This document shows positions 423 to 8,190 of a DNA stretch of 58,132 nucleotides, piece after piece. The notes below the pieces were generated by a model. The model saw nothing but the letters and a program-made list of their open reading frames with translations. It made no database searches and was not told where the DNA came from. The stretch lies in assembly GCA_002708935.1 (NCBI GenBank), contig PAPO01000002.1, positions 26,059-84,190 of the forward strand. Reading direction: 5' to 3'. The stretch comes from Acidimicrobiaceae bacterium. Lineage in GTDB: Bacteria; Actinomycetota; Acidimicrobiia; Acidimicrobiales; Poriferisodalaceae. The stretch's first letter is position 1. Each line of letters begins with the position of its first letter. The translations under genes were made by a program, and so were the position numbers.

Positions 423-1571
423 GTGATCTTTGATCTAGACCTGGAACGTGTGCGGAACCGACCCGGTATCAAATGGGAACGCCATGGCAGCGACGTGTTG
501 GCTGCGTGGGTCGCGGACATGGATGTCGAAGTTCCCGATTTCATCAAAGAAGCGGTGGTAGCGAGAATTAATGAAGGTGGACTCGGCTACGGCTTCTACG
601 ATGAGCCGATCCCGGTGCTGGAAGCATTCAAATCGCGAATGTCTCATGCGTTCGACTGGAATGTCGAAACGTCAGATGTGCTTCGAGTGCACGACGTCAT
701 ACAAGGCCTCGAATGGGTTTTGGACACTTTGACCCCGCCAGGGTCAGGAATCGTCGTACAAACACCGGTGTACCCGCCTTTCTATTCCAGCGTCGAAGGC
801 ACAGGACGAAACTGGGTCGCGAATCCGTTAATGGAAACCGAAGATGGTTGGGCACTTGACTTCGACCATTTAGACCAGGTGGCTGAGCGGGACGATGTTT
901 CGGCTCTGCTGTTATGCCACCCTCACAACCCATGCGGTTATGTCATGACCTCAACTGATTTGGTTCAGATCATTGAGATAGCTGACCGTCATGACCTTGT
1001 GGTGATTTCTGATGAAATTCACTGCGATTTGGTGTATTCGCCCCATGAACACATACCGGCGGCATCAATAAGTGAACTCGCAGCGCAACGAACCGTCACT
1101 CTTACTGCAGCCACTAAAACCTTCAATATGGCAGGGCTGAGAATGGCCTTTGTCCACAGTTCTTCGCAGCAATATTTGCCGCAACTGAAAGAAATCCGGC
1201 CCCGAATGATTGGCGGCATAAATGGATTGGGGCAAGTCGCCACTGTCGCTGGTTGGGAACAAGGAGACGCGTGGATAGCCGAACTCGTTGAAGGACTTGA
1301 TCACAATCGGCACCTGCTGTCCGAGCTATTGAGTGAACATCTTCCTCAGGTTCGATATCGACCTCCAGAAGCTACTTATCTGGCGTGGCTGGACTGCCGT
1401 GAGTTAGATCTCGGCGAGGACCCCGCAGAAACCTTCTTGTCGCGAGGCAAGGTTGCTCTCAACTCCGGTTTGGATTTTGGGGTTGAAGGAGCAGGCTACG
1501 TGCGACTGAATTTCGCGACGTCACCAGAGATGCTCACGATGATTGTCGAACGGATGGCTTCGGCGGTTTAA
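423..1571 (+). CDS. PatB/MalY-type aminotransferase-fold C-S lyase (cystathionine beta-lyase)
   Basis: A 382-residue fold-type I PLP enzyme, the normal length for the PatB/MalY family, which cleaves cystathionine or cysteine conjugates to a thiol, pyruvate and ammonia. Visible signatures are the N-terminal KWERHGSDVLAAWVADMD, which binds substrate in this family, the SDEIHCDL strand with the PLP-ring aspartate, and the PLP-lysine motif ATKTFNMAGLR. It uses a GTG start at 423 because the family N-terminus (IFDLDLERVRNRPG) begins right there; no good Shine-Dalgarno is present. Its 3' end overlaps the convergent SURF1 gene by four bases. Whether it works in methionine synthesis or in degradation of sulfur conjugates cannot be told from sequence. 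Confidence 0.85.
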   Translation: MIFDLDLERVRNRPGIKWERHGSDVLAAWVADMDVEVPDFIKEAVVARINEGGLGYGFYDEPIPVLEAFKSRMSHAFDWNVETSDVLRVHDVIQGLEWVLDTLTPPGSGIVVQTPVYPPFYSSVEGTGRNWVANPLMETEDGWALDFDHLDQVAERDDVSALLLCHPHNPCGYVMTSTDLVQIIEIADRHDLVVISDEIHCDLVYSPHEHIPAASISELAAQRTVTLTAATKTFNMAGLRMAFVHSSSQQYLPQLKEIRPRMIGGINGLGQVATVAGWEQGDAWIAELVEGLDHNRHLLSELLSEHLPQVRYRPPEATYLAWLDCRELDLGEDPAETFLSRGKVALNSGLDFGVEGAGYVRLNFATSPEMLTMIVERMASAV

Positions 1572-2311
1572 TCATCCGCCGGCCCTAAGTTCTCGGCGTC
1601 CCCTTTACGAGCTTGTCGACGCAGGACCAACGGATAGCCGACTGCCCCCACTGCGAAAAAGAGAAACCATTGGACGGCGTAAGCCAAATGGGGCCCGAGG
1701 TGAGTGGGAGGCGGATCGACTGGAATAGCGTTACTGGCCGAAGGGTTACTCGTCATCAATTCCACGTAAACGGGTGCCAGCATGAATGACACCTGTTGAT
1801 CGATTCTGGCAACGTCAGTTCGAGCCAGAGACGTAAGTACCCCGCTCAAAGAATCACGTGCTCCTATAGCGCCACGTTTCTGGCTCAGACGCACCCGTCC
1901 AGTTAGTGAAACCGTTTCCGAGGGCGGCTCAAGTTGATTTGGGTCGCACGAACTTTGGTGGAGCCATCCGACAACCACAAGAATCGCTCGTGCATCGCTG
2001 ATAGCCAGCGGAACCGCTAAATGACAACCCGCCATCTCCCGGTGGCTTCTATTGCGTATCAGTACCGCATCGTCAGGGGACCACGTTCCCTCCAACTGCA
2101 CCATCTGAAATTCGATGCCGTCAGATGACTCGAACAGATCGGCTGCTTCCAGAACGGGCGCGTTGGATCGTTCAACAACGGTTTCATTACGTTCACCTCG
2201 TGCCTGATGCCGTCCGAACTGCCAGACCCCAGCGGTCACAAAAGCAGTCAACAACAGCAACGTGAGAAGGTGCGCCGCCATCCATTTAGGTTCACGAACG
2301 AAGCCGTACAT
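1568..2311 (-). CDS. SURF1 family cytochrome oxidase assembly protein
   Basis: SURF1 proteins sit in the cytoplasmic membrane and help insert heme a into aa3-type cytochrome c oxidase. This one has the family layout: an N-terminal membrane helix (about residues 10-32, ending in the typical GVWQFGRH), a periplasmic domain with VQLEGTW and VVVGWLHQ-like strands, and a C-terminal helix with YAVQWFLFFAVGAVGYPLVL followed by a basic tail (RRQARKG). About 247 residues from the ATG at 2311; a TTG seven codons upstream is possible. It is divergent from the CapA-like gene, with 37 bases between starts. It indicates an aerobic heme-copper oxidase encoded elsewhere. Confidence 0.85.
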   Translation of the reverse strand: MYGFVREPKWMAAHLLTLLLLTAFVTAGVWQFGRHQARGERNETVVERSNAPVLEAADLFESSDGIEFQMVQLEGTWSPDDAVLIRNRSHREMAGCHLAVPLAISDARAILVVVGWLHQSSCDPNQLEPPSETVSLTGRVRLSQKRGAIGARDSLSGVLTSLARTDVARIDQQVSFMLAPVYVELMTSNPSASNAIPVDPPPTHLGPHLAYAVQWFLFFAVGAVGYPLVLRRQARKGDAENLGPADD

Positions 2312-2348: not shown

Positions 2349-3578
2349 GTGTACCGCCGTTACATCCTTGTGGCAACCGTCGTTGTATGTTCCGCTTTCC
2401 CAGTCGCGTGCGCAGAGCCCAAAGCCGAGAAAGCTATCTTTGTTGCCCGCGAAACCACGACAACTAGCGCACAAGAACTCGACGAACAGGCAGATGTTTC
2501 GACGACAAGTGAGGGACCGCGGGCTGACCAAAGCAATGACGAAGGCACCGATGTTGCCCCAACCACTGAGGGTGTGACCCACAGTGTGACCACTACAACA
2601 GCGACGCGGCAACCCTGGACCCTTCTTGCAGGGGGCGACGTACTGCTTGACCTCACCGAACCTGAAGGAATTGATCCATTCGCGAACGTTCAACCCGACC
2701 TCGCATCAGCAGATATAGCAATTGTGAACCTCGAAATGGCGATCACCGAACGTGGAGAGCCTTACAACAAGGAATTCGTTTTTCGAGCTCCGGGGTCAGC
2801 TGCACTGACCCTGGCCGGAGCTGGAATAGACGTGGTGTCGCTAGCTAACAATCACGTCCTTGACTTCGGTCCAGTCGGTCTTGCAGACACCATCGCAGTT
2901 CTGGACGAAGTTGACATATTGCGGCCCGGAGCCGGCTCCAATAATGCGGAGGCCTACGCACCTCGAGTCCTGACATTAAGCAACGGTATTCGCGTCGCCT
3001 TTGTTTCCGCGACAGCTGTTGTCCCGGGTGGCTTTGCCGCATCAGCCGATCGCCCCGGAGTTGCCGATGCGAAGTGGGCGATTCCGCGGGTCTTAGCTGC
3101 AGTTCGGGCGGCCGCCGCGAGCAACGATGTAGTCGTCGTAAGCGTGCACTGGGGGATTGAACGCGAAACCTGCCCAAGCGACGATCAACGAGCCTTAGCC
3201 ACAGATCTCATTGAAGCAGGAGCGAACCTAATCCTCGGGCATCATCCTCACGTATTACAACCCATAGAAACGTTTGATCGCACCGTCATTGCGTACTCAC
3301 TGGGTAATTTTGTGTGGCATCCGCGGTACGGAATCACCGGCGACAGTGGCGTTTTAGAAATCAGCTTCGACGGGTCCTATGTAGAGGGCTATCGCTTTCA
3401 CCCCCATATCTTGGATTACCGCGGAGGGCCGACTCCGGTCTCAAGCGGTGACCGATACGACCGCATCATTGATGTCATTGAGGGAAGGTGCGAACAACAC
3501 GACCCAGAGCCCCCGACCACTACCGAAGTTGTGGTCGATGAGGACACAGACACGACAACATCAACCACGGTCGGCTGA
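2349..3578 (+). CDS. CapA/PgsA-like metallophosphatase-fold protein, exported
   Basis: A member of the CapA superfamily, named for poly-gamma-glutamate capsule synthesis, with a calcineurin-like metallophosphatase fold. Motifs in order: LLAGGDVLLD, ANNHVLDFG, HWGIERE, LGHHPHVLQPIE and AYSLGNFVWHPRYGITGDSG, all expected metal or active-site positions. I place the start at the GTG at 2349, since this puts a hydrophobic export signal (about residues 5-20, ending ...VACAEP) at the N-terminus; a GTG at 2262 would overlap SURF1. The signal is followed by a Thr/Ser/Glu-rich linker (about residues 35-85) and the protein ends in an acidic, Thr-rich tail. Many CapA homologues are not in capsule operons and no pgsBC partner is here, so the substrate is unknown. 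Confidence 0.8.
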   Translation: MYRRYILVATVVVCSAFPVACAEPKAEKAIFVARETTTTSAQELDEQADVSTTSEGPRADQSNDEGTDVAPTTEGVTHSVTTTTATRQPWTLLAGGDVLLDLTEPEGIDPFANVQPDLASADIAIVNLEMAITERGEPYNKEFVFRAPGSAALTLAGAGIDVVSLANNHVLDFGPVGLADTIAVLDEVDILRPGAGSNNAEAYAPRVLTLSNGIRVAFVSATAVVPGGFAASADRPGVADAKWAIPRVLAAVRAAAASNDVVVVSVHWGIERETCPSDDQRALATDLIEAGANLILGHHPHVLQPIETFDRTVIAYSLGNFVWHPRYGITGDSGVLEISFDGSYVEGYRFHPHILDYRGGPTPVSSGDRYDRIIDVIEGRCEQHDPEPPTTTEVVVDEDTDTTTSTTVG

Positions 3579-3580
3579 AT

Positions 3581-5482
3581 TCACAAAATCTCAACTGGCT
3601 CAATCAGATCTGACGGATCGAAGCCAAGAACTTGTCCCAGGAAAGAAAGCTCCGCGTCCAAAGCACGAGCGATTGTCTCTGCTTTGCGGAAACCATGACT
3701 TTCTCCTTCAAAAAGAACATAAGCGTGGGGAATCCCCGCGTTGGTCAATGCCTCCACGAGCTGTTCTGCTTGAGACGGAGGGACGACGGGATCATCTGCC
3801 CCCTGTAGAACAATCATGGGTGTTGACAATCGGTGCGTGTGATGGATAGGCGAACGTTCGTCGTATATGTCCTTTTCGGCAGGCCATTCTCCGACCAGTG
3901 AATCGAGATAGCGAGCCTCAAATTTGTGTGTGTCCCGGGCCAGAGACGCAAGATCAGCTACCCCGTAGCGCGACACTCCAGCTGCGAAAAGCGTGCTCGA
4001 CGTCAATGCACATAGTGTGGTGAAACCCCCAGCTGAGCCGCCCTTTATCGCCAGCCGGTCAGGATCAACCAGTGCATTGTCAGCTAGATGTTTCGCGGCC
4101 GCTACGCAGTCCTCGGTATCAGCGACCCCCCACTGGCCGCGGAGTTTGTTTCTGTATGCCGTGCCGAAACCAGTACTCCCTCGATAATTCACGTCCACGA
4201 CTGCGATACCGCGATTCGTCCAATACTGCACAGCAGGATCAAAAGAAGATCTCGCAGCCCCAGTAGGACCGCCATGGCTGAGAACCACGAGAGGCGGCGA
4301 CTCAGAAGAACAGAAAAAAGCGGAGTTATTCGGAGCAAAATGAAAGCCGTAAGTAGCTTCCCCCGACGGGTCCATGACCTCAATAGTTTCAGGAGTCGAA
4401 ATTTCTTCCTGGCCTATAGGGAGCGGGCGCGACGTACTGATCTGTTCGGTCGAACCGTCGGTATGTAACGCCCTGACAGCAGCGGTTGTTTCCCAACTAG
4501 CAGCAATGGTGACTGCTCGACCATCTCCCAAGATATCTAGACCGTTGAATTCGGTTAAACCACTATCAACTTCAACCCATTCAGAGTCAATAATTTGGCC
4601 GACACGGCCGATGCCTTCGTCAATCCAAGTGCACCAGAGAGCATCACCAGCCCAGTCATAGGTTTTTTGGCCAAATACCCATCCAGGAATGCCGAACTCA
4701 ACTTCTGCCTCAACAACCGGATGAGACGAATCATTTGGCACGTCAACCTCATGGATATTCCACCAACCGGTCGCATCGCTAATGACGTGAAGTCGACCGT
4801 CCGGTGAGAACCGTGGCTGTTGTAGTGCCGGGCCGTCAAGCACAACCCGGTGTCGCGTCCACCCAGTCGCTTGCCGTTGGGCTACATGCAGTCGCACGTG
4901 ATCCCAGGGCATTGAAGGATGATCCCAAGACAAATATGCCAGCCATTGGCCATCGGGAGAAATGGTTGGAGAAGAATAGAAATCTGCTCCCGAAGCCACT
5001 TCAATCATGTCGCCTGTCGGAGTGACTGTGGCCAACAAATTTTGAGGATGACCAGCGCTGTTCTGATGTCGTTCGATAACCCAAATTGTGTCGCTGCTCC
5101 CGGGAACAGCGACCCCGTTCGAGTACCGCAAGCCCTTAGGGAAAGACGGCTCGACAGTTATCGGACGGAAGTCATCACTGAGCAGCCAAAGCCTTTGATC
5201 TTCGAAACGAGAAACCAAGATTCCGTCATCGGTGGGAAGCCACGCACCCCCTCCATATTCATGAACCAATGTGCGCACGTTGAGGTCATCTGGTCCGACC
5301 GTGACGGTCTTGGCACCATCAAATTTAACTATCGTCGTCCGACCCGACTCTTCGGGTCGGCCCTCTAACCACAACACTTCGTCATTGAAAACGCGGGGCT
5401 CAGAAAGACGAGTCGCGCCACTCGCGAGTTCCTCGGAGGTGAGTTCCGATGGCCAACTGCCATAGGGTTGATCCTGTTTCAA
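3581..5482 (-). CDS. S9 family serine peptidase (prolyl oligopeptidase type)
   Basis: A 633-residue protein with an N-terminal beta-propeller (about residues 30-370, repeated Pro-Asp-Gly blades such as SPDGQWLAYLSW and SPDGRLHVIS) and a C-terminal alpha/beta-hydrolase domain. The catalytic triad is visible: nucleophile Ser in KGGSAGGFTTL, Asp in GADDPVVPP and His in EGESHGFRK. This is the architecture of dipeptidyl or acylaminoacyl peptidases acting on short peptides. There is no export signal, so a cytoplasmic location is likely. It ends two bases past the CapA stop (convergent). The 241 bases upstream of its start hold a plus-strand structured RNA. Confidence 0.9.
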   Translation of the reverse strand: MKQDQPYGSWPSELTSEELASGATRLSEPRVFNDEVLWLEGRPEESGRTTIVKFDGAKTVTVGPDDLNVRTLVHEYGGGAWLPTDDGILVSRFEDQRLWLLSDDFRPITVEPSFPKGLRYSNGVAVPGSSDTIWVIERHQNSAGHPQNLLATVTPTGDMIEVASGADFYSSPTISPDGQWLAYLSWDHPSMPWDHVRLHVAQRQATGWTRHRVVLDGPALQQPRFSPDGRLHVISDATGWWNIHEVDVPNDSSHPVVEAEVEFGIPGWVFGQKTYDWAGDALWCTWIDEGIGRVGQIIDSEWVEVDSGLTEFNGLDILGDGRAVTIAASWETTAAVRALHTDGSTEQISTSRPLPIGQEEISTPETIEVMDPSGEATYGFHFAPNNSAFFCSSESPPLVVLSHGGPTGAARSSFDPAVQYWTNRGIAVVDVNYRGSTGFGTAYRNKLRGQWGVADTEDCVAAAKHLADNALVDPDRLAIKGGSAGGFTTLCALTSSTLFAAGVSRYGVADLASLARDTHKFEARYLDSLVGEWPAEKDIYDERSPIHHTHRLSTPMIVLQGADDPVVPPSQAEQLVEALTNAGIPHAYVLFEGESHGFRKAETIARALDAELSFLGQVLGFDPSDLIEPVEIL

Positions 5483-5533
5483 CTTAACCTCAAAAATGCT
5501 TTGTAGATGGACTAATCAACGCTAGCCCTTGAG

Positions 5534-5539
5534 TATGAT
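5534..5539 (+). promoter_or_regulatory. Candidate -10 element (TATGAT) for the small RNA
   Basis: TATGAT matches the sigma70-type -10 consensus at five of six positions and lies seven bases before the proposed RNA start near 5546. There is no good -35 hexamer at the expected spacing (bases 5511-5516 read ACTAAT), so the promoter call is weak by itself and rests on the downstream structure and terminator. Confidence 0.35.
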
Positions 5540-5545
5540 CCTGCA

Positions 5546-5717
5546 CGGAAGAAACGAGGATTCGGGCTAACAAGAGCGTCGCACACGCTTGCCCGAAAAT
5601 AGAATTGCCGCCCATCTCGATGAGCGCCATGAGGTCTGCGCTCCGGATTTCCCACCGATCCGAGAGCGTTCCGTGAGCCGAGGGAGTACCCACCGACCCC
5701 CTCGGCTCACATTTTTG
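5546..5717 (+). ncRNA. Candidate structured small RNA with two C-rich hairpin loops and a terminator
   Basis: Between two minus-strand genes the plus strand can fold into four consecutive hairpins. Hairpin 1 pairs 5561-5567 with 5591-5597 (TTCGGGC/GCCCGAA), with an inner AGCG/CGCT stem. Hairpin 2 pairs 5622-5627 with 5638-5643 (GAGCGC/GCGCTC). Hairpin 3 pairs 5644-5648 with 5658-5662 (CGGAT/ATCCG). Hairpin 4 is a 12-bp terminator stem followed by five T. Loops 3 and 4 share the sequence CCCACCGA. C-rich loops on adjacent hairpins recall the actinobacterial 6C RNA class, but the cytosine runs are shorter, so this is resemblance only. A minus-strand frame at 5490-5693 (67 codons, GTG start) overlaps it and is the main alternative explanation. 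Confidence 0.5.
5673..5716 (+). terminator. Rho-independent terminator reading on the plus strand
   Basis: A perfect 12-bp inverted repeat, GTGAGCCGAGGG (5673-5684) and its complement (5699-5710), has a 14-base loop and is followed by A and five T. The T-run is only on the plus-strand side. All neighbouring protein genes (3581-7180) are on the minus strand, so this terminator does not serve any of them and points to a plus-strand transcript. Confidence 0.75.
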
Positions 5718-5723
5718 TGAGCG

Positions 5724-5927
5724 CTAATCTTTATCTAGATCAGAAACAATGCGTTCAACCTCATGTCGCGTCGTCTCGAGACGTCCCCGGCACCACTCGA
5801 TTAACTCCGATGCGCGTTGCAGATCAACCGTAAGCGAATCAATATTCACGTCGTCGCTGTCGAGTTTCTTCAGAATCGCATCTAACTCCTGGGTAGCAGT
5901 TTGAAAACTAAGGTCTTCGTCGGTCAT
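5724..5927 (-). CDS. xseB: Exodeoxyribonuclease VII small subunit
   Basis: A 67-residue acidic helical protein of the usual XseB length. It has the family features: an early LSFQTATQELDAILKKLDSDD segment (cut here for illustration of the helix pattern) and a second helix with LQRASELIEWCRGRLE. XseB binds the C-terminal coiled region of XseA to form exonuclease VII, which degrades single-stranded DNA processively from either end. Its ATG overlaps the xseA stop by four bases, so translation is coupled. It is the last gene of the unit and stops just beside the oppositely directed terminator of the small RNA. Confidence 0.92.
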   Translation of the reverse strand: MTDEDLSFQTATQELDAILKKLDSDDVNIDSLTVDLQRASELIEWCRGRLETTRHEVERIVSDLDKD

Positions 5928-8053: not shown

Positions 8054-8190
8054 CGATCATCGTCCCACGAGGCGACCAGGTGATCTGCGGCACACAGCGG
8101 AATCCGCTGAGAGCTGCTGCCTCCCGGCCCTGACTCGATTCACGGGCCGCTGTTGCACAGGACCCGGTCGCCACGTGGAACGATGATGCG
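8054..8190 (-). ncRNA. ffs: Signal recognition particle RNA (4.5S type)
   Basis: On the minus strand this region contains the conserved SRP domain IV: GTCAGGGCCGGGAGGCAGCAG, with a GGGA tetraloop closed by CC/GG, and GTGTGCCG on the 3' side of the internal loop. The outer ends form a long helix: GGCGACC (8166-8172) with GGTCGCC (8071-8077), and CATCATCGTTCCACG with CGTGGGACGATGATC further out. The RNA binds Ffh and guides membrane-protein translation. The position between tRNA-Ser and dnaX agrees with the mycobacterial arrangement as I recall it. The exact ends are inferred from the helix; the 3' end probably comes from RNase P cutting of the adjoining tRNA. Confidence 0.88.

Follow-up and report, generated by a model that had tools for sequence, protein, structure and literature searches.

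The 6C RNA is known in mycobacteria as B11 or ncRv13660c. Published descriptions give the family two stem-loops, each having at least six C residues (PMC8388888; PMC4046766), and in Mycobacterium abscessus either loop of B11 alone represses a reporter with a G tract in its 5' untranslated region (UTR) (PMC10470900). In Xanthomonas, sX13 is an Hfq-independent RNA with stable stems and apical C-rich loops (PMC3771888).

A locus with a comparable layout was examined in a 58,132-nucleotide stretch of DNA (the window) from an uncultivated marine actinobacterium of the order Acidimicrobiales, in the gap between a gene for an S9 family peptidase (positions 3581 to 5482, minus strand; Pfam PF00326) and xseB, encoding the small subunit of exonuclease VII (5724 to 5927, minus strand; Pfam PF02609 [Exonuc_VII_S]). 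The plus strand of this gap carries a promoter-like hexamer, four predicted hairpins, paired loops, and a terminator. The peptidase gene is a divergent neighbor and xseB a convergent one, and the predicted small RNA (sRNA) overlaps neither reading frame. An earlier note on this DNA had placed the surrounding protein genes on the minus strand and had suggested that the gap may hold an undescribed small RNA on the plus strand with its own terminator. The minus strand indeed carries xseA, xseB, and the S9 peptidase gene, every element that the note named is present (TATGAT, four hairpins in the minimum free energy [MFE] fold, the shared loop sequence, and TTTTT), and comparative evidence backs the suggestion of a small RNA, with a smaller functional part than the note described.

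Relation to described RNA families

The locus shares with 6C a stand-alone sRNA gene in an actinobacterium and two adjacent GC-rich hairpins (about 12 to 14 bp) with C-rich loops and a T-rich or terminator-like end after the second. Loop composition and spacing differ. The loops of 6C are runs of six or more C residues, whereas the motif here is CCCACC(GA), and an invariant A interrupts the C run in both loops (UCCCACC and ACCCACCGA). No nucleotides separate the two hairpins of 6C, whereas several do so here. The 6C covariance model (RF01066) found nothing in the window at E values up to 10 and did not match any of seven diverse homologues of the sRNA; its best match in the genome (19.5 bits, below the cutoff of 47) was at a different place. 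Conversely, true 6C RNAs were not recognized by the new covariance model, and none of 12 6C-like loci had xseA, xseB, or an S9 peptidase gene beside it. The sRNA is, as tested, not a member of 6C, although its layout, and probably its mode of action, is that of 6C; the same architecture with mutually failing model searches agrees with the earlier description of a resemblance to 6C without an exact match.

A covariance-model search had been proposed as a check; when Rfam was scanned at both gathering and permissive thresholds, no family, 6C included, reached its cutoff in the region of the sRNA. The best score for the window was that of Scr3202 of Streptomyces (RF02833; 25.2 bits, E = 0.099, below the gathering score of 52), which has two hairpins with C-rich loops, as in the sRNA core, but most of hairpin 1 of the sRNA is unpaired in the Scr3202 alignment. 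The loop logic of sX13 equals that of the sRNA, but sX13 has three stem-loops with 4C or 5C motifs, belongs to another phylum, and has no homology to the sRNA. No record of this sRNA was found in Rfam 15 or by literature search. The sRNA is a new, family-wide RNA of a general kind that is already known, with a distinct loop code.

Two other RNAs were observed in the course of the analysis. In a distant actinobacterium (locus L078), an Ms1 RNA (2675 to 2975, plus strand) and a 6C RNA (1501 to 1576, minus strand) are separated by about 1.1 kb. At 8071 to 8169 on the minus strand of the window, between a tadA-like gene and dnaX, there is an ordinary bacterial small signal recognition particle (SRP) RNA, which is overlapped by spurious frames.

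Conserved core, promoter, and terminator

The conserved core of the sRNA (5637 to 5716, plus strand), supported by covariance models R1 and R2 and by covariation, consists of two hairpins and a T tract. Hairpin 1 (5638 to 5669, plus strand) has 12 bp and one bulged base, and its loop is UCCCACC (5650 to 5656); 7 of the 12 pairs were changed on both sides among relatives, with 98.4% of cells paired. Hairpin 2 (5673 to 5710, plus strand) is the 14-bp terminator stem, with the loop UACCCACCGA (5687 to 5696); 7 of its 14 pairs were changed on both sides, with 98.7% of cells paired. The sequence CCCACCGA is present in the loops of the third and fourth predicted hairpins, which are core loops 1 and 2. 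The T tract of the intrinsic terminator, TTTTT (5712 to 5716, plus strand), follows the last stem. Upstream of the core, a 5' leader (5546 to 5636, plus strand, from the inferred transcription start) contains two poorly conserved hairpins, at about 5562 to 5596 and 5606 to 5629.

The whole stretch at the locus had a minimum free energy of -71.7 kcal/mol (z = -4.5), and none of 200 dinucleotide shuffles was as stable. In this genome, the core (5637 to 5713) had a folding z score of -9.4 and the 90-nt leader one of about -0.1; the means over 32 relatives were -7.0 for the core and -1.2 for the leader. The excess stability of the stretch therefore belongs to the last two hairpins. The first two hairpins were dropped from the functional core, as the leader is no more stable than shuffled sequences here and is poorly conserved; its length between the -10 element and the core ranges from 39 to 106 nt among relatives. 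One copy in genus g6 (L044, 1501 to 1586, minus strand) has a mismatched second hairpin and a core z score of -0.9, as if decaying, and its sister copy (L064) is intact.

In a 33-sequence alignment fitted to the covariance model, a procedure that favors the structure, 14 of the 26 stem pairs (76 cells) showed compensatory changes, and 98.6% of cells held standard pairs. Not one of 500 shuffles reached any of the covariation measures, and the signal was lost when pairing partners were slid by one to three columns. The covariation picture was unchanged when 22 sequences were aligned plainly with MAFFT. The motif CCACC was invariant in both loops (33 of 33 sequences) while the stem sequences drifted, a contrast that singles out the loops as the functional part of the molecule. 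All four hairpins of the earlier note are thus predicted, but only the last two are conserved elements, and the compensatory changes in relatives that it had named as a check were found for those two stems, the first two not being conserved.

The putative sRNA promoter has the -10 element TATGAT (5534 to 5539, plus strand), with a -35 element that is degenerate in the genus of the host. A TAnnnT -10 element is retained in genera g1, g2, g4, and g7, about 95 to 105 nt before the core, and TTGAC[A/G]-N17 or N18-TAnnnT occurs upstream of the core on the plus strand in genera g3, g5, g8, g9, and g10. TTGAC-N17/18-TAnnnT was absent from the minus strand and from 164 kb of flanking strand-bases. A T tract follows hairpin 2 in nine genera. 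In genus g5 (L040 to L043 and L065 to L068), the stem and loops are kept with no T tract after the terminator stem; termination there must be different, or the RNA must be processed, and this absence counts against reading the sRNA as a stand-alone, self-terminated antisense RNA.

Covariance model R1 found the core in 37 of 39 genomes of the host's family (a strong match in 36 and a weak one in one more), with one copy per genome; the core was present in all 25 high-quality family genomes and in 10 of 10 genera. With blastn against relatives, 21 further family genomes matched the core, and almost the core alone, at 74 to 95% identity. Outside the family, R1 gave no credible match in about 240 to 248 genomes of the order or about 395 to 396 of the phylum, and neither did the wider model R2 with laxer filters in 40 genomes of the order. 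Three weak outside matches to R2 were rejected because they had neither paired C-rich loops nor the neighbor genes. Phage records contained no match to the RNA, and the exact pattern did not occur in viral contigs. The S9 peptidase gene adjoins the RNA in all 10 genera and xseB in 9 of 10, in every case on the strand opposite to the RNA. Genus g10 has, in place of xseB, a putative transporter gene pair, which looks like the TRAP type from a reading of the translations, and the RNA is therefore independent of xseB.

The locus combines the features of a stand-alone, intrinsically terminated sRNA, namely, a predicted promoter of its own, conserved structure, a terminator, and no coding potential. 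On this comparative evidence, which establishes the gene, its strand, its structure, its invariant loops, and the absence of coding, it is identified as a stand-alone, sigma-70-transcribed, self-terminated sRNA of about 170 nt on the plus strand, with a core of 80 nt. The existence of an sRNA gene at this position is considered almost certain.

Candidate mode of action and alternative readings

The sRNA would most plausibly act as an Hfq-independent, trans-acting antisense RNA that pairs through its loops, like 6C, a reading held with moderate confidence, for which we infer both pairing and targets. Displayed on two rigid GC-rich stems, the duplicated C-rich loop would initiate pairing with GGUGG(G)-containing stretches in mRNAs, limited in number, whose translation would be blocked or whose stability would be altered. 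Either loop would serve, as in 6C/B11 of mycobacteria. The host genome had no match to Hfq or CsrA, with positive controls matched.

Targets were sought by hexamer enrichment, by duplex energies between loops and ribosome-binding sites, and with reversed-loop controls. Across the starts of 392 genes in this genome, enrichment was seen for GGAGG-like motifs but not for complements of the loops. In the tests of loops against ribosome-binding sites, the reversed-loop controls behaved alike. Genome-wide, CGGTGGG occurred near start codons 135 times, barely above the control (110 for the reversed pattern), and a stricter scan of gene starts yielded no case in the stretches scanned. Given this lack of enrichment at the 392 gene starts, the earlier proposal of loop pairing with G-rich ribosome-binding sites is unsupported as a general rule. 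This leaves a small number of targets, pairing at other sites in the mRNA, or protein binding by the loops, and for this reason confidence in the mechanism is lower than in the existence of the gene.

One candidate target was followed and rejected. The sequence GAGTCGGTGG (L143, upstream of 1501) is complementary over 10 nt to loop 2 and its stem; it sits where coding ends in the gene that precedes a NUDIX hydrolase gene, and most, not all, relatives retain it. These 10 nt are better explained by the final codons (Glu-Ser-Val-Asp-stop) of that preceding gene, and in a comparison of 19 close orthologues, silent or missense substitutions disrupt the complement in several relatives.

It is possible, if unlikely, that the sRNA instead binds protein, with the duplicated invariant CCACC loops as docking sites through which it would sequester or guide a protein much as CsrB or RsmZ does, the protein being a different one. 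The repetition of one invariant loop motif and the lack of an enriched mRNA complement at gene starts are consistent with such a role; each RNA, however, has two sites only, CsrA was not found in the genome, and the close architectural parallels act through base pairing. We know of no protein with such CCACC-loop specificity in Actinomycetota. Doubtful also is the idea that the CCACC loop pair is a recognition site for a putative actinobacterial RNA-binding protein or another fixed partner; if true, the sRNA would be the first of a new class of protein-titrating or protein-guiding RNAs in bacteria without Hfq and CsrA.

Less probable still is a cis-acting element in which plus-strand transcription, or the RNA itself, regulates the opposing xseB or S9 peptidase transcripts. 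The adjacency of the peptidase gene in 10 of 10 genera and of xseB in 9 would fit this, but the loops touch neither gene and yet are the most conserved part, other genes replace xseB in g10, and the RNA lies clear of both reading frames.

That the strand has been misassigned, and that the structure belongs to the minus strand as a peptidase mRNA leader or a bidirectional terminator, is very improbable. Inverted repeats are alike on both strands, and the covariance model gave weak minus-strand matches to hairpin 2, but the plus-strand structure contains 67 G-U cells against 12 nonstandard cells of any kind (summed). G-U pairs are A-C mismatches on the opposite strand and thus indicate the plus strand, and the T tract and promoters are found solely there; G-U pairs, T tract, and predicted sigma-70 promoters together fix the plus strand.

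A small protein gene, for which the 67-codon minus-strand frame at 5490 to 5693 is open in the window and which the earlier note had named only as a competing idea, has next to no chance of being correct, as the frame has no Pfam match, substitutions track base pairing rather than codons, and single-base insertions or deletions in the linker (L056), loop 2 (L057), and loop 1 (L058) of relatives shift every frame on both strands, so that coding is excluded and this reading is already refuted by the alignment.

To our knowledge, few small RNAs are known from uncultivated marine Acidimicrobiales, and a literature search found none from these organisms. The sRNA is a second actinobacterial RNA with the 6C layout, apparently unrelated to 6C, and as such it favors the view that bacteria without Hfq have repeatedly arrived at rigid stems with C-rich loops as a means of base pairing. 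Its nonhomopolymeric loop would offer a way to test what sets target choice. Family-wide conservation of two hairpins with the same loop suggests a regulatory RNA that acts like the 6C RNA of tuberculosis bacteria, and since it is kept in every well-assembled genome of the family, it probably serves something basic.
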